Both the position numbers and the translations under genes were made by a program. 28,607 nt of DNA from a virus. The notes under the pieces are model-generated. The model was given only the letters and a program-made list of their open reading frames with translations, did not search any database and was not told the DNA's origin. This document shows, in pieces, positions 863 through 21,691 of this stretch; the stretch's first letter is position 1, and every line of letters begins with the position of its first letter. The stretch is taken from positions 1 through 28,607 of IMG/VR virus record IMGVR_UViG_3300047386_000147. One strand, given 5' to 3'.

Positions 863-1056
863 ATGTTTTTCCAGTTGTCCCCATAAATATCTAGCATATT
901 ACGCTCAAGATCAGCTTTAGACATCTTTTGCAAGTCCCCTTTGACCTTAAGGCGAAACATTTCTATTTCATATTCCTCAATCATAGCCATCATGTAGTCC
1001 ATCTCAGCAGCACTGAAGTAGTCCGTTGGGTCTGGTGGTATCATTTGTTCGACCAT
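859..1056 (-). CDS. Hypothetical helical protein
   Basis: A 65-residue, Met-rich, mostly helical protein (MVEQMIPPDPTDYF at the start, then a long amphipathic helix). It shares a TAATG junction with the upstream gene and an ATGA junction with the downstream Zn-knuckle gene. No domain is recognised. Confidence 0.65.
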   Translation of the reverse strand: MVEQMIPPDPTDYFSAAEMDYMMAMIEEYEIEMFRLKVKGDLQKMSKADLERNMLDIYGDNWKNI

Positions 1057-1313
1057 TACTTGTTGCCTCTTGTTAAGTACTTAAGGTGATTTATAGAGTC
1101 TGCCAGTTGTTGCATTCGCTCTAGTTTTTGCCGGTGTTGTTCGTTTAGGTCTTCCACTGTTAACTGTAATTTAGTCATAGCAGTGTTCATACGTCCATAA
1201 TCAGGTTCAGCGTCAGGGTCATACTCAGGTTCGACATAGTGTTTATAAATACCTTTGCCTTCTAACCTGTCGTAATAGTCATCATGCCAAACGTCTGCTG
1301 TTTCTCTTGTCAT
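1056..1313 (-). CDS. Hypothetical protein with C-terminal coiled coil
   Basis: An 85-residue protein. The first half is rich in Asp, Tyr and Glu. From about residue 45 onward it is a long amphipathic helix with leucines at heptad-like spacing, so dimerisation is likely. AAGGAG lies 9 bases before the ATG, inside the end of the sigma-region-4-like gene. I do not recognise the family. Confidence 0.7.
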   Translation of the reverse strand: MTRETADVWHDDYYDRLEGKGIYKHYVEPEYDPDAEPDYGRMNTAMTKLQLTVEDLNEQHRQKLERMQQLADSINHLKYLTRGNK

Positions 1314-1315
1314 CT

Positions 1316-1480
1316 TTAGTTCTCCTTTGCTCCTACGTACTTCTTGAGCCTATCAGATTGCTTTAATTTTTTCAATGCCTGGTATTCAGTTTGTTGCACT
1401 TCAGCACGTGTAATATTTAACACTTTTGCAACTTCCTCCTGAGTCATAAAGTAGTCGCCTACGTGGCTACGTTTCTTCAT
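1316..1480 (-). CDS. Sigma-70 region 4-like HTH mini-protein
   Basis: A 54-residue frame whose residues 10-41 follow sigma-70 region 4.2 closely. It has YFMTQEEVAKVLNITRAEV followed by QQTEYQALKKLK, where E. coli RpoD has a -35-binding helix-turn-helix of the form LEEVGKxFxVTRERIRQIE followed by ALRKLR. There is no region 2, so this cannot be a full sigma factor. Positions equal to E. coli E585 and R588, which touch the -35 box, are Ala and Gln here, while R584 is kept. It overlaps the methyltransferase-like gene as ATGA and feeds into the next gene. Likely roles (inference) are a small promoter-binding regulator or a decoy that engages RNA polymerase. Confidence 0.8.
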   Translation of the reverse strand: MKKRSHVGDYFMTQEEVAKVLNITRAEVQQTEYQALKKLKQSDRLKKYVGAKEN

Positions 1481-2067
1481 AGATTGCCCCACTGGTCTGC
1501 CATTGCTTCCGCAATGCCCTCAAAGGTAGTGCTTCTGATCTTCCATCTGTCAGCACTAGGTGGTAAGTAATGAATTCTTTGCTGTTGGTTCTTCGGTAGT
1601 TTGTCCATTATTTCTTTGACATTGTTGGTCTCAGTCAACGACGGTAAGTTGTGCAACCAAAGGCCTGTTTTCTTTGACTCAGGATGTCCAAACATCCAAG
1701 GCTGTACGTATTGCGTAGGCTTAAAGGGTAAGACACCTACAGGATTCTCCATACATACAAACCTAGCGTTTTCTTTTGCAGTCTCCCAAAGCTCTCTGGT
1801 CCACTCTATGGCCTTTAGTCTCTCGTCATGCTTTGGCATACCTTGACCGTACCAAGCGTTTCCAGAGACAGCTAAAGCTGTGCAAGGTGGATGCATTATA
1901 ATTATGTCCCATTGCTCTCGTTTCATTACTCCAATGCAATCTTCTTCGTAATGCTTTGGTGATTCATCGTCTGCGGGTAATAGATCACATGACCACGCAT
2001 CATGTCCTAAAGCTGCAAAGGCTTCTCTTACTCTCCCTGAATATTCACAAGCGACCAAAACTCTCAT
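1477..2067 (-). CDS. Cytosine-C5 DNA methyltransferase-like protein
   Basis: A 196-residue protein with a SAM-binding start (VLVACEYSGRVREAF, residues 3-17) and the catalytic PPCT of C5 methyltransferases at 60-63, with C62 as the nucleophile. It also has an ENP motif (107-109, equivalent to ENV) and a C-terminal FEGIAEAMADQW helix resembling the last MTase motif. It is far shorter than usual C5 enzymes (300 or more residues) and has little room for a target-recognition domain. It may be relaxed in specificity or need a partner. Homologues of this short form occur in many phages. It probably protects phage DNA from restriction or marks it. It starts within the ATGA junction with the small membrane gene upstream. 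Confidence 0.75.
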   Translation of the reverse strand: MRVLVACEYSGRVREAFAALGHDAWSCDLLPADDESPKHYEEDCIGVMKREQWDIIIMHPPCTALAVSGNAWYGQGMPKHDERLKAIEWTRELWETAKENARFVCMENPVGVLPFKPTQYVQPWMFGHPESKKTGLWLHNLPSLTETNNVKEIMDKLPKNQQQRIHYLPPSADRWKIRSTTFEGIAEAMADQWGNL

Positions 2068-3203: not shown

Positions 3204-3430
3204 GTTGTGGTGCTCCGTTGTGTTTGCTGATGTATTTACTTTAGGTGCAACACTTGCTGTAGTCCAATATTAGTTTTGAATACTGAATCACAAAGTCATT
3301 TAGTTTATGAATAACTATTGACAATGCCTGGTGTTTGGTGTACTCGCGTGCGCCTACGTATAAATATAAGTAGTGACTAGAGGGACCAACATAAGCTCAC
3401 ACACTTGTCAACCCAGCACACCAACAAAAG

Positions 3431-3715: not shown

Positions 3716-3744
3716 TTGACTTTTATGTAAACTTATGTTATACT
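3716..3744 (+). promoter_or_regulatory. Sigma-70-type promoter for packaging genes
   Basis: TTGACT, then exactly 17 bases, then TATACT, each 5/6 to consensus. Transcription should start near 3751, just before the first rightward gene at 3773. The palindrome ACTATAGT (3742-3749) overlaps the -10 and start site and is also present at the second promoter near 9595. Confidence 0.75.
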
Positions 3745-8656: not shown

Positions 8657-8891
8657 AACCAAAGGCGGTCTTACTAAATGGTTTAAAGAGGATTGGGTGG
8701 ACGTTAAAACGGGTAAGCCTTGTGGTCGTAAATCAGCTACCAAGAGTAAACGTCCTTACCCTTCTTGTAGGCCTAAAGCGGTTGCAGCTAAGATGACAGC
8801 TGCTGAAAAGAAGTCTTCAGCTAAACGCAAAACCGGACCTGCTAAAATTAAACACGCAGTTACTGCTTCAGGGAGACGTAGAAAAAAGTGA
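8649..8891 (+). CDS. Basic protein with GGLTKWFKEDWVD motif
   Basis: An 80-residue protein starting MSKTKGGLTKWFKEDWVDVK, followed by CGR and YPSCRP and a Lys/Arg/Ala-rich tail ending GRRRKK. The pairing of WFKEDWVD with CGR...YPxCxP marks a widespread small viral family, possibly DUF5872 or a relative. I am not certain of the number. The two cysteines may bind a metal or be redox-linked. The ATG at 8649 is chosen over GTG at 8637 because it fits the family start. It overlaps the previous gene by 8 bases and the next by GTGA. Confidence 0.7.
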   Translation: MSKTKGGLTKWFKEDWVDVKTGKPCGRKSATKSKRPYPSCRPKAVAAKMTAAEKKSSAKRKTGPAKIKHAVTASGRRRKK

Positions 8892-9577
8892 GTTACGAAA
8901 CTAAAGTAAAGCAAGCTTTAGATATATGTTTAAACAAAAACTACTTTAAGGGAAACGATAAAGAAACAGCCATAGTAATGTACTCAGGTGGTATGGACAG
9001 TGTCTCATTACTATGGAATCTTTTGGAACATACAGAACAAGACATACACGTACACTCAATACACATAGACAACTCTGAAGGCCGTGTTAAAGCAGAAGCA
9101 AAAGCTATAGAGAACACGATCAACTATATGAGAAAGAACCAAAGACCCTTTGAGTTCTCTTCTTCGGTGTACTCTTGGAAAGCTAAGTATCCAGGTGGTA
9201 AGGACATGGTGCTTGCACTATTCCAAGCTATGAGGACTGCTTCTGGTTTAGGTAAAGCTTTTAACATTGTTTATACAGGTGACTACAACATAGGTAGAGA
9301 CGAAGGTGCTGAAGCACAAGGTGTGTTAAATGCACTATGTACTACACGACGTGTTAAGCCTATTTGGTTAGCACCTTTTGAACACATGACGTACAACTCT
9401 GTAGAACGTAGCAAAGGTATCTACTTAAGTATGCCTGAAGAGTTACGTGAGATGTACTGGTCCTGTAGACATCCTACCGATGCTTTAGGTGGGTTTATTG
9501 TCTGTGGTGACTGCCACGCTTGTGAACGACAACAAGCAATGCAAGAAAGTATAAAAAAAGACTTGACAAACGACTAA
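8888..9577 (+). CDS. queC: QueC-like 7-cyano-7-deazaguanine (preQ0) synthase
   Basis: A 229-residue PP-loop ATPase. It has SGGMDS at 33-38 (ATP pyrophosphatase loop) and a C-terminal zinc site C193, C206, C209 and C212 (CGDCHACERQ), the hallmark of QueC. QueC turns 7-carboxy-7-deazaguanine into preQ0 using ATP and ammonia. Phages use preQ0-type bases to replace guanine in DNA and escape restriction, or boost host queuosine. The usual partners (GTP cyclohydrolase, QueD, QueE, a DpdA-type transglycosylase) are not in this window. The GTG start overlaps the previous stop as GTGA, and GGGAG lies about 12 bases upstream. It sits between basic head-linked genes and scaffold, which is unusual. A different PP-loop role cannot be ruled out. 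Confidence 0.75.
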   Translation: MSYETKVKQALDICLNKNYFKGNDKETAIVMYSGGMDSVSLLWNLLEHTEQDIHVHSIHIDNSEGRVKAEAKAIENTINYMRKNQRPFEFSSSVYSWKAKYPGGKDMVLALFQAMRTASGLGKAFNIVYTGDYNIGRDEGAEAQGVLNALCTTRRVKPIWLAPFEHMTYNSVERSKGIYLSMPEELREMYWSCRHPTDALGGFIVCGDCHACERQQAMQESIKKDLTND

Positions 9578-16795: not shown

Positions 16796-19700
16796 ATGGC
16801 TAAAAGTTCTCGAGGAATGTTTACAGGTGGGAGCGTGTACTCAGGAGGTACGCCTACCTTTGATGAAACTGTAGGCCAACCAACACTGCCAACTGGTGGG
16901 GTCAAAGGTGGTCCCACAAAGCAAGCTCCTATAGTTAGACCACCTCCTACTTCAGAACCTGCTCCTGCTCCAGAGCCAGAAACAGAAGAAATGACCTTTA
17001 CGTTTATAGAAGGTAGGGAAAGAGGAGGAGCACAACAGAACTATCTTTATGGTCAGGAAGGAGAAGTTCGACAGGTTACTGTAGACGAACTACGTGAGTA
17101 CTTTGAAAGCGACGAAGTAAACAGACTACCTGAAGTATTCGGTACGTTTGACAATTATCTTGCTTACATGACTGAGCGTGAAGAGTTACTTCAGTCTGGT
17201 GAGCTGACTGTTGGAGACTGGGCTAACGCAGACACCGGCTTTACCGAAGATCAACAAATGATTCTTGAGGGTGACGCTGACTTAACTATTGATCCTAGCG
17301 ACCCTGGTCAAAACTTAGAAAACTTACGTAGACAACAAACTAGTACTCAAGCTGGTGCTTATAACAACTGGTTGAACTCTGAAGCTAACCAAGCGTTACT
17401 ACGTAAGTACGGTGTTGTTACTGACCTTTATTCTACTTCGGGAGACCGCTTTAGATGGAATGGATCAGCCTACGTTAAAGTAGAAGACCAAAGTTCCGGT
17501 GCCGGAGACATCTTTAAAGCAGGTTTCCAAATTGCTGTAGGCTTAGCTTTAGGCGGTGCTGGAGTTGGATCTGCTCTTTCTTCTACAGTAGGTTTAAGTG
17601 GTGCTTCTGCTGCGGCTTTTTCTGCTGCTGTTAACTCAGTAATCTCACAGGTAGCTACCGGCGTCTTAACAGGTGGTGACTTAGACATAAGCCTTGAAAG
17701 TGTTATACAAGCTGCTGTTACTGGCGGTTTACTAGACACCGACATTGCACAGGAAGCACTCCAAGCATTAGAAACAGGTAACGAGTTTGTTGACGCTGTT
17801 GTTCAAGCAGGTGTTATTAACTCAGCTACTCAGTTAGCTACAAGCGGTGAATTAGACCCACAACAGCTTATTGAAGCTATGGTTCGCGCAGGTCTTACGG
17901 ACCAGTTTGGTGAGTACTTAGAAAACCTAGAAGACTTAGCACAAACTGAATTAGACCAGCTTGAGGAATTCTTTAGAGGCTACGTACCAGACATAAGTGC
18001 TATTGAAGACTTCTTGTCACAAGCAGAAGGTTTATTTGACACTGACATCTCTGAGTACACAGAGCAATTTGAAGAAATTGTAAGTCAAATTGGTGATGCT
18101 GTAGAAGGTGCTGTAGAAGAAATAGACGAAGAAGAACTAGAGTACAGAGCAGGTGAAGGCTACATAGACCCTGGTTCATACTACTACTATACCGACGAAA
18201 ACGGTAATAGAATTCTAGGTCAAGACATAGAAGGACTTCGGTATACTTCTGACGGAACTTATGTTGATGCTGACGGTAATGTCTATGACTTAGGAGGCAC
18301 TGCTGCAGTAAACGAAGACGGCACTGTTGATTACTATGACGGCTTTGCTGAAGACGGCGCGTCTATTATTGCTACAGGAGAAATCCAGTTAGGTCAAGAC
18401 GGTCTTTATGACTCTGAAGGCAACCTTGCTTACTACCAAGACGAAGGTCAATGGTTTGACGCCGACGGTAACATAGTAAGTGACCCTACTGTTGTAGACC
18501 AACTAACAGGTTTAACTGAAGGTCAGGTTCCTTATGATCCTAGACAGTTTTCAGACACTGCTTTTCAATCTGCTATTGATAGTGCAGTAGATCAACAAGA
18601 CATCGGTGCTATTGTCGATCATATGACAAGCATTGGAACAGGTGTAGACGCTAACGGTTTCTTTGGTCTCTCCGATTCAGACCAGGAAGTTTTAATGGGT
18701 TTGTTTGGTGTCTCAACTCAAGAAGAATTAGTTGAAGCACTGGCTCAGTCAGGATACACAGTTAATACTAACGGTTCTCAAGTAGTAATAGACTTTAACT
18801 ACGATAGAAGTGAAGAGTACGGTCAGATTAATGACGTAGATCAATCTGGCAACATTATTCGTGTACGAGACCCTAACGAACCAACAGAAATTTTTATAGA
18901 CCCTGAGTACGACCCTACTGAAGAAACGCCTGAGCCTGAACCTGAGCCTGAAATAGGTGGCGGTGGAGGTGGCGGAGGTGACTCTTCTACTACTCCTACT
19001 GATGAAGACGATCCATTAGCTAGTACTGTTCCTTCTGCTGAAGACACGGCTGAACAAATACGAAGGGATCAGGCTGAAGCCGCTGCGGAAAGACAGCAGA
19101 AAGAACAAGATGCTGCTGCGGAAAGACAGAAGGACGCTGCTGCAGCTGAGAGACAAAAGGATGCAGATGCTGCAGCCGAACGTGCATCTAAGGACGCTGC
19201 TGCAGAAGCTTCTAAAGATGCTGCTGAGCGAGCTGACAAAGAGACTGCTGAAAAAGCAGAAAAAGAATCTGCTGCAGAAACACAACAGAAAGAACAAGCA
19301 GCTGCAGAAGAAGCACAGAAGGAAGCCACTGCTGAAACTGAGCAAAAGGAAGCTGAAGCAGCTGAGGCAGCTGATAAGGAAGCTCAAGCAGAGACTGAAC
19401 AAAAGGAAGCTGACGCTGCTGAAAAGGCAGAGAAGGATGCTGCTGCAGAGACTCAGGAAAAAGAGCAGGCCGCTGCAGAACAACTTAAGAAGGACACTAA
19501 AGCAGAGACTCAGGAAAAAGAACAAGCTGCTGCTGAAAAAGCTGAGAAGGACCGTCAGGCTGAAGAAGATAAAAAAGAGTTAGCAGAAGCTGAAGGTAAG
19601 GACGCTGAGGAAACTCAAAAGGAACAGCAAGCAGAAACAGAAGAGAAAGAGGCTGCTGCTGAACAAGCAGAGAAGGACGCCGAAGCTGAAACTCAAGAAA

Positions 19701-21691
19701 AAGAAGAAGTAGCTGCAGAACAAACTAAGAAAGAAGCCGATGCTGAAACTCAGGAGAAAGAGCAGCAAGCAGCAGAAGAAGCTAAGAAAGAAGCCGATGC
19801 TGAAACCCAAGTAAAAGAAGAAAGAGCAGCAGAAGTAGCTGAGAAGGACGCTCAGGCTGAAACTGAGGAAAAGGAAGCTCAGGCTGCAGAGCAAGCTCAA
19901 AAGGATGCTGAGGCTGAAACTCAGGAAAAGGACGTAGCTGAACAACAAGAAAAAGACGCGGAAAAAGAAACAAAAGAAACGCAAGCTGAGCAACAAGATA
20001 AGGATGCTGAGAATAAAGCAAAGGAAGATGCTGCTGCGGAACAAGCTGACAAAGAAGCTGAAAACAAAACTAAGGAAGAGCAAGCGGCAGAGCAGGCTGA
20101 CAAAGATGCTGAGACTAAGGAAAAAGAAGAGATAGCTGCAGAACAATCAGATAAAGACGCTGAGCAAACCCAAAAGGACGCTCAGGCTGAGACTCAGGAA
20201 AAGGAAGAAGTAGCAGCTGAGGAAGCTAAGAAGGAAGCCGATGCTGAAACTGAATCTAAGGACGCAGAGACTGCTGAGAAGGACGCTCAGGCTGAAACCG
20301 AAGAGAAAGAAGAGGTAGCTGCTGAGACTGCAGAAAAAGATGCTCAAGCTGAAACAGAGCAGAAGGAAGAAGCAGAACAGGGTAGAAAAGAAGAAGCTGA
20401 AGAAATAGCTAAAGAAGCTGCTGAAGAAGTTCAAAAGGAAGAAGCCGAAAAGGAACAAAAAGACGCTGCTGCAGAGCAAGCTGATAAGGACGCAGAGAAA
20501 GAAGATAAAGACGCTATTGCAGAACAAGAAGAAAAAGATGCAGAAAAGGAAGATAAAGAAGTAGCTGCAGAACAGTCTGATAAGGATGCTGAGAAAGAAG
20601 CCAAGGATACTGCTGCAGAACAACAAGACAAAGATGCTGAAAAAGAAGAGAAAGATGTTGCTGCAGAACAGGAAGATAAAGATGTTGCTGCAGAACAAGA
20701 AACTAAAGAGGCTGCTGCAGAAGAGCAACGTAAAGAAGAGGCTGCTGCTGAGACTGCTGAGAAGGATGCCGAAAATAAAACTAAGGAAGAAACAGCTGCA
20801 GAACAGGAAGATAAAGACGCCGAAGAAACAGCTAAGGACGCTGCTGCAGAAACTAAAGAGAAAGAAGAAATAGCTGCCGAAGAAGCTCAGAAGGACGCTG
20901 AGGCTGAAACAGCAGAGAAAGAAGCTGAAGATCAAGCCAAGGACGCTGAAGAGGCTAAAAAGGAAGCTGACGCTGAAACTCAAGAAAAGGAAGAGGCTGC
21001 TGCAGAAAGATCAGAAAAGGAAGCTGCTGCAGAGACTCAAGAAAAAGAAGAAGCGGAGCAGGCACGTAAGGAAGAAGCTGAGCAGACTCGTAAAGAAGAA
21101 GTAGCTGCTGAAGAAGCTGTTAAGGAACAAGCTGCCGAAGAGCAAGCTAAAGAGCAGCAAGCAGCAGAGGAAGCCGCCAAAGAGCAACAAGCGGCTGAGG
21201 AAGCTACCAAAGACGAAAACGCCCAGAAGGACACCAGTGCTGAAACCGAAGCTAAGGATGCTGAACAAGCCAACAAGGATGCTGCTGACGAACAGTTAGA
21301 AAAGGATCTACAGTCTTCTGAAGAAGTACGGAAGGACGCTGAAGAGCAGGCCAAAGACACTACTGGAACTGGAGATGGTGACGGTGACGGAACTGGTGAA
21401 GGAACTGGTGTAGGAGACGGTACTGGAACTGGAGGTGGTTCAGGTGCTGGAACAGGGACTGGTACTGGTGATGGTTCAGGACCTGGTGTTGGTGGTGGTA
21501 CAGGCATGATGGCAGCTGCGGCAGCACCTAAGAAGACTGACTTTACTCCTTTCATGTCAGGCATTAATTACGAGTTGCCTACGTTGGAAGAAATAGGTCA
21601 AGCACCTCAAGTTGACTACGTAGCGTCTTTACAGGACACATTAGGACCAACCGGAATAACAAGCAGTTTGTTTAAGGAATATATCGGATGA
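16796..21691 (+). CDS. Giant virion-region protein with ~770-residue charged helix
   Basis: A 1631-residue protein in sections. It has a Pro/Gly-rich start (1-65), a folded acidic domain (66-235) and a hydrophobic Gly/Ala part that could touch membranes (about 237-368). A stretch with five D/N-x-(D/E)-G-N/T hairpin motifs follows (about 460-560). After a further domain come a PEPEPE-G8 linker (about 710-725), a region almost only of A, E, K, D, Q and T (about 752-1520), a Gly/Thr/Asp linker (1521-1580) and a short C-terminal domain. Units of 16 or 19 residues recur in the charged part. As one straight helix it would be about 115 nm long (1.5 A per residue). It starts right after the holin and overlaps the tail adaptor as ATGA, so it is probably a virion or ejected protein. 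Function unknown. Confidence 0.75.
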   Translation: MAKSSRGMFTGGSVYSGGTPTFDETVGQPTLPTGGVKGGPTKQAPIVRPPPTSEPAPAPEPETEEMTFTFIEGRERGGAQQNYLYGQEGEVRQVTVDELREYFESDEVNRLPEVFGTFDNYLAYMTEREELLQSGELTVGDWANADTGFTEDQQMILEGDADLTIDPSDPGQNLENLRRQQTSTQAGAYNNWLNSEANQALLRKYGVVTDLYSTSGDRFRWNGSAYVKVEDQSSGAGDIFKAGFQIAVGLALGGAGVGSALSSTVGLSGASAAAFSAAVNSVISQVATGVLTGGDLDISLESVIQAAVTGGLLDTDIAQEALQALETGNEFVDAVVQAGVINSATQLATSGELDPQQLIEAMVRAGLTDQFGEYLENLEDLAQTELDQLEEFFRGYVPDISAIEDFLSQAEGLFDTDISEYTEQFEEIVSQIGDAVEGAVEEIDEEELEYRAGEGYIDPGSYYYYTDENGNRILGQDIEGLRYTSDGTYVDADGNVYDLGGTAAVNEDGTVDYYDGFAEDGASIIATGEIQLGQDGLYDSEGNLAYYQDEGQWFDADGNIVSDPTVVDQLTGLTEGQVPYDPRQFSDTAFQSAIDSAVDQQDIGAIVDHMTSIGTGVDANGFFGLSDSDQEVLMGLFGVSTQEELVEALAQSGYTVNTNGSQVVIDFNYDRSEEYGQINDVDQSGNIIRVRDPNEPTEIFIDPEYDPTEETPEPEPEPEIGGGGGGGGDSSTTPTDEDDPLASTVPSAEDTAEQIRRDQAEAAAERQQKEQDAAAERQKDAAAAERQKDADAAAERASKDAAAEASKDAAERADKETAEKAEKESAAETQQKEQAAAEEAQKEATAETEQKEAEAAEAADKEAQAETEQKEADAAEKAEKDAAAETQEKEQAAAEQLKKDTKAETQEKEQAAAEKAEKDRQAEEDKKELAEAEGKDAEETQKEQQAETEEKEAAAEQAEKDAEAETQEKEEVAAEQTKKEADAETQEKEQQAAEEAKKEADAETQVKEERAAEVAEKDAQAETEEKEAQAAEQAQKDAEAETQEKDVAEQQEKDAEKETKETQAEQQDKDAENKAKEDAAAEQADKEAENKTKEEQAAEQADKDAETKEKEEIAAEQSDKDAEQTQKDAQAETQEKEEVAAEEAKKEADAETESKDAETAEKDAQAETEEKEEVAAETAEKDAQAETEQKEEAEQGRKEEAEEIAKEAAEEVQKEEAEKEQKDAAAEQADKDAEKEDKDAIAEQEEKDAEKEDKEVAAEQSDKDAEKEAKDTAAEQQDKDAEKEEKDVAAEQEDKDVAAEQETKEAAAEEQRKEEAAAETAEKDAENKTKEETAAEQEDKDAEETAKDAAAETKEKEEIAAEEAQKDAEAETAEKEAEDQAKDAEEAKKEADAETQEKEEAAAERSEKEAAAETQEKEEAEQARKEEAEQTRKEEVAAEEAVKEQAAEEQAKEQQAAEEAAKEQQAAEEATKDENAQKDTSAETEAKDAEQANKDAADEQLEKDLQSSEEVRKDAEEQAKDTTGTGDGDGDGTGEGTGVGDGTGTGGGSGAGTGTGTGDGSGPGVGGGTGMMAAAAAPKKTDFTPFMSGINYELPTLEEIGQAPQVDYVASLQDTLGPTGITSSLFKEYIG
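19050..21360 (+). repeat. Degenerate AEK/KD repeats coding for the charged helix
   Basis: Protein units of 19 residues (type AETQEKEEVAAEQTKKEAD) dominate 19440-20370. Units of 16 residues (type AEQSDKDAEKEAKDTA) dominate about 20470-20690. The DNA is rich in GCTGCAGAA and AAGGAAGA words. The opposite strand therefore reads as long Leu/Phe/Ser/Cys-rich frames that are not genes. Confidence 0.85.

Follow-up and report, generated by a model that had tools for sequence, protein, structure and literature searches.

A stand-alone protein from uncultured podoviruses that resembles the C-terminal end of a primary sigma factor

Phages that depend on the host's RNA polymerase frequently intervene at the junction between sigma region 4 and the beta flap, and the locus described here raises the question of what a virus might do with the very end of a sigma factor and none of the rest. 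The window, which is the whole 28,607-nucleotide stretch of DNA analysed, comes from an uncultured podovirus that, like its many relatives, is known only from environmental sequence. On its minus strand (1316..1480) lies a gene of 54 codons, running from an ATG at 1480-1478 to a TAA at 1318-1316 and translated as MKKRSHVGDYFMTQEEVAKVLNITRAEVQQTEYQALKKLKQSDRLKKYVGAKEN. The mini-gene is certainly a real coding gene, because the frame is kept in eight kin contigs (L002-L009) at 85-100% identity and because, across the nine contigs compared, dN (0-0.10) is far below dS (up to about 2.7), with the changes falling mostly at third codon positions.

The resemblance of its product to sigma is equally clear in profile searches. 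The Pfam model Sigma70_r4 (PF04545) matches the mini-protein at 29.4 bits, above the curated cut-off of 24.1, with residues 12-41 lying on positions 21-50 of the 50 in the model, a match to region 4.2 alone and not to the whole of region 4 (4.1 plus 4.2). A narrower profile, built from four SigA/RpoD segments, gives 27.6 bits, whereas the top score among 20,000 shuffles is 16.3 bits and the runner-up among the 418 frames of the window reaches 6.0 bits; a chance match is thereby excluded. Repeated searches with growing alignments recovered a family of about 165 encoding loci from uncultured viruses in the last scan, 80 of which were kept; they fall into subfamilies at about 35-75% identity, and each of the 26 members sampled is matched by Sigma70_r4 at E<=0.05. 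The first-pass annotation, which had proposed a stand-alone sigma region 4 mini-protein and had staked this on conservation of the frame in related phages and on a predicted region 4 fold, thus stands on the Pfam match, on the kin that carry the frame with dN far below dS, and on the region 4 helices that AlphaFold2 predicts. At 54 residues and with region 2 absent, the protein is nevertheless not a sigma-70 family sigma factor.

Is the source then any helix-turn-helix, or sigma in particular? The first-pass annotation saw nothing else of a sigma factor beyond the helix-turn-helix and its flanking end, which understates the likeness, as residues 41-50 also match the ten residues at the very end of primary sigma. 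At E about 1e-8, the family profile can be aligned with residues 331-371 of SigA (371 in total) and 572-612 of E. coli RpoD (613 in total), right through the terminal tail RSxKLRxFL of these primary sigma factors, whereas its alignment to RpoH stops at profile position 42; on these grounds the alignments mark the C-terminus of a primary sigma, and not just any helix-turn-helix, as the apparent source. The phage tail RSGKLRTFLE scores far above shuffles against the Thermus sigma tail RSEKLRDFLE, and RSGKLRxFL[DE] likewise outscores shuffles in each variant tested (P<=0.007). Compared with RpoD/SigA, the mini-protein aligns from T572 to the C-terminal residues and its predicted helices match, but it lacks regions 1-3 and 4.1, has lost E585, has R588 changed and shares a family-wide deletion of three residues before the tail, seen as a gap facing H600-P601-S602 of RpoD. 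Region 4.1 (H1-H2) is absent, and the likely start codons examined sit just before region 4.2. Some Pfam matches to longer relatives begin at model position 5-9, but a remnant of region 4.1 was rejected for L175, L182 and L204, where the extra N-terminal residues are a translated Shine-Dalgarno region and overlapping upstream gene, and where the likely starts again lie just before region 4.2.

Structure prediction gives a consistent picture. AlphaFold2 with an eight-row alignment places helices at residues 14-21 and 25-53, with a mean pLDDT of at least 90 in each block from 11 to 40, and with a 26-row alignment at 7-10, 14-21, 25-41 and 43-53 (mean pLDDT 80, pTM 0.54). Read together with the sigma alignment, the predicted elements are the first helix of the helix-turn-helix (sigma H3, residues 14-21; 1418..1441, minus strand), the recognition helix (sigma H4, residues 25-41; 1358..1408, minus) and an H5-like C-terminal helix (residues 43-53; 1322..1354, minus), the candidate flap-hook tail, since the H5 tail of sigma70 occupies the beta-flap hook (PMC2988021). 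The helix-turn-helix is the best-predicted portion and the tail has a lower pLDDT of about 60-73. In the PDB the top structural match to the model is an archaeal transcription factor, and most of the others are region 4 of primary sigma factors; with a chain this short, it is no surprise that none has E<=0.001. Among the best viral structural matches (BFVD) are 54-67 aa proteins of uncultured Caudovirales annotated as sigma-70 region 4, and the kind is therefore already known by annotation; UniProt A0A6J5N2N3 (54 aa, 47% identity over 34 columns), A0A6J5LCA9 and A0A6J5KJE7, known from annotation only, are similar to the mini-protein in size and fold. A literature search found no paper on stand-alone sigma-4.2 phage proteins.

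The residues that would meet DNA deserve separate attention. In sigma70, R584, E585, R588 and Q589 read the -35 element. Mini-protein residues 13-44 align with E. coli RpoD 572-603 free of gaps, and bear out the first-pass reading that R584 is kept (residue 25) while E585 has become Ala (residue 26) and R588 Gln (residue 29). Among 41 distinct family sequences, the equivalent of R584 is R in 36 and that of E585 is never E, while that of R588 is R in 22, Q in 13 and K in four; column 589 is the most variable, with 585 and 586 also in the most variable group. The tail behaves otherwise, with L at the L607 equivalent in 38 of 41, F or Y at the F610 equivalent in 38 of 41, and the L607, F610 and L611 equivalents hydrophobic in most. 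From these counts it appears that the family retains scaffold and tail while the DNA-reading positions drift.

Base-reading residues that differ from RpoD and vary within the family might suggest that the mini-protein takes the place of sigma region 4 in the holoenzyme, giving it a new -35 specificity and shifting it to a phage promoter class, much as the first-pass annotation had envisaged when it proposed redirection to other -35 sequences. The promoters make this unlikely. The main late promoter of the window, TTGACT-17-TATACT, with TGn, lies directly before terS (3716..3744, plus strand) and is near-consensus for sigma70. A perfect or near-perfect sigma70 promoter with TGn precedes terS across much of the group (L160, L175, L204 and others), reaching 12/12 consensus in many kin; the form found in the window occurs in phages with and without the mini-gene, and the late -35 is the standard TTGAC[A/T] in either case. 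No class of promoters with an atypical -35 came to light, and kin that lack the gene have the same layout. We consider it similarly doubtful that a hybrid holoenzyme forms, in which host sigma regions 1-3 would be combined with phage region 4.2 on the beta flap for altered -35 recognition. Further against redirection, sigma region 2 (PF04542), the part of a sigma factor that binds core and recognizes the -10, has no match in 18 contigs of the group, on which ground a sigma divided between two proteins, with region 2 on the partner, was rejected, and no RNA polymerase was seen in the kin that lack the gene, which likewise disposes of a phage polymerase as its replacement there. A search for T7-type RNA polymerase, with two Roseobacter phages as positive control, found none in the other contigs or in G005 (37,367 bases), which looks nearly complete because both of its ends lie in the tail-fibre gene. 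As far as seen in these sequences, the phages appear to rely on the host enzyme; the lack of an RNA polymerase has precedent among marine podoviruses, as in SIO1 (PMC6775973).

How far the gene is needed can be judged from its distribution. Seven kin (L077, L087, L091, L092, L098, L110 and L131) lack it, although their terminase is 90-95% identical and their early region is readable; the case is strongest for G013 and G016 (35-37 kb), and several others are fragments that may carry a copy elsewhere. A further helix-turn-helix was looked for in ten small early proteins from three of these kin and not found. Because close kin live without it, the mini-gene is accessory and neither a required function nor a master switch. 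Beyond the uncultured viruses, 50,697 isolated-phage records yielded no family match at E<=0.01, the weaker matches there including ordinary sigma factors, and a single weak relative (43%) turned up in the genome collection, on a contig of a Magnetococcales MAG. L010 and L011 were rejected as family members, having probably been recruited by a peptide, KKYVGAKE, shared by chance with DnaE; their mini-protein is of a different, T4-like type without the tail. This second short sigma region 4 protein (MTLEEVAKRLGISLVRVSQIEKQALKKL), which has no sigma tail, occurs in L010, L057, L064 and L071.

The gene neighbourhood introduces a further possibility, namely that the mini-protein controls an adjoining methyltransferase gene, in the manner of MAD1 of the MADS defence system. 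The upstream gene encodes a cyanophage gp12-type DNA methyltransferase (phrog_757; 1477..2067, minus), whose stop overlaps the ATG of the mini-gene (ATGA), and the same overlap with a different, Dcm-type methyltransferase is found in L028, L030 and L037. Like MAD1, the mini-protein is small, has a helix-turn-helix-like stretch and sits beside a methyltransferase, and it gives a weak match to the PADLOC mad1 profile (E=0.002). Control of the kind exerted by MAD1 or by a restriction-modification controller is nonetheless very improbable, as no methyltransferase adjoins the mini-gene in L031-L035 or in the 57-aa group, and as such an enzyme is absent beside many family members. In the comparison with MADS, the adjoining gene gives a generic methyltransferase match, the linkage is not constant in the family and the rest of the system was not seen. 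Among kin the position immediately upstream of the mini-gene is a swap site: the window has the gp12-type methyltransferase there, the three contigs named above have the Dcm-type enzyme, L097 has a QueC-like PP-loop protein, and L031-L035 have no gene of this sort. Downstream, and directly after the mini-gene, starts an 85-aa gene of unassigned function (1056..1313, minus) that is a frequent neighbour in kin. In contigs that are long enough, the mini-gene shares an operon with the primase-helicase and DNA polymerase genes, upstream of both, and this operon faces opposite to the terminase and portal genes. Sequence comparison shows a mosaic early module, swapped around the divergent intergenic region. 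Relative to the window, L041, L051 and L160 have terminase and portal at about 86-94% identity, primase at about 42-44% and polymerase at 55-60%. Elsewhere in the window, a QueC-like PP-loop protein (phrog_1550; 8888-9577, plus) lies among the structural genes and may be a pointer to deazaguanine chemistry, and a 1631-aa protein (16796-21691, plus) contains long degenerate charged repeats (KDAAAE-like).

What, then, might the protein do? Our tentative preference, which we hold with rather less than even confidence, is that it is an accessory mimic of the C-terminus of sigma, acting at the beta flap, on promoter DNA or both. The gene product would amount to a truncated primary-sigma C-terminus, comprising H3, H4 and H5 without region 4.1 or region 2, probably expressed early given its place in the leftward operon, and with the host RNA polymerase as its most likely target. 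Its tail would dock at the beta-flap tip and displace sigma70's own tail, the helix-turn-helix would touch or occlude upstream promoter DNA, and host promoters that need the -35 contact would be weakened or tuned. The main late promoter, with its TGn extended -10, could tolerate a weakened -35 contact, and TGn/-10 promoters withstand its loss in sigma70 (PMC2988021); this lends the mimic no specific support, because kin without the gene have the TGn promoter too. Consistent with mimicry, the hydrophobic positions of the tail are held and the base-reading positions vary. Against it, sigma70 touches the flap through H1, H2 and H5 (PMC2988021), and H1-H2 are missing here. The earlier suggestion that the protein occupies the beta flap and blocks host sigma gains support, not adduced there, from the conserved H5 tail, but loses some through the absence of the other flap-contacting helices.

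The missing region 4.1, together with a deletion that may alter the geometry of the tail, makes it nearly as likely that the protein is a small DNA-binding repressor or autoregulator without contact to RNA polymerase, dimerizing through its long C-terminal helix as a minimal Cro-type protein; the tail could instead serve folding or dimerization. As the main rival to flap mimicry, this reading is a real if lesser possibility. It accords with the helix-turn-helix being the best-predicted part and with weak matches to HTH_3 and P22 Cro, but these fall below their cut-offs (15.2 against 23 and 15.6 against 30.2 bits) while Sigma70_r4 lies above its own. A helix-turn-helix of the sigma4.2 type also occurs in regulators such as the archaeal Tfx family (a weak NCBIfam match), yet the tail matches primary sigma specifically. 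The strong, constitutive-looking late promoter would need a repressor for its delay, but an operator confined to mini-bearing phages did not emerge from the two conserved intergenic elements checked: the terS promoter itself and a conserved early-facing element, TTGAC..CTTATGTT (3388..3411, minus), which resembles the late promoter and is common to mini-bearing and mini-lacking kin. Both were rejected as operators of the mini-protein, being present in kin without the gene.

For mimicry at the flap, phage precedents exist. T4 gp33, encoded by the phage, binds the beta-flap tip and stands in there for sigma domain 4 (PMC2988020), a functional precedent for the flap binding proposed for the mini-protein, but it has 112 residues, no discernible sequence similarity to sigma and no DNA reading (PMC2988020). 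It also works with gp55 and the sliding clamp, whereas no region 2 partner was found for the mini-protein. T4 AsiA and Xp10 P7 are likewise small phage proteins at the interface of sigma4 and the beta flap (PMC2988021, PMC3985653), described there as binding to sigma4, to the flap or to beta', with no resemblance to sigma seen in these descriptions, while the mini-protein is sigma sequence; T4 MotA binds H5 of sigma70 (PMC2988021).

In these descriptions gp33, AsiA and P7 are not presented as sigma sequences, and the mini-protein is a literal sigma end. As such it is a very small tool for testing which flap contacts sigma region 4 needs. If the hybrid holoenzyme were true, a stolen sigma tail would control the host RNA polymerase in widespread phages without a polymerase of their own. 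More generally, a protein of this kind, conserved in a large uncultured group and unmatched in the isolated-phage records, would show that a stolen sigma tail can be of use by itself.
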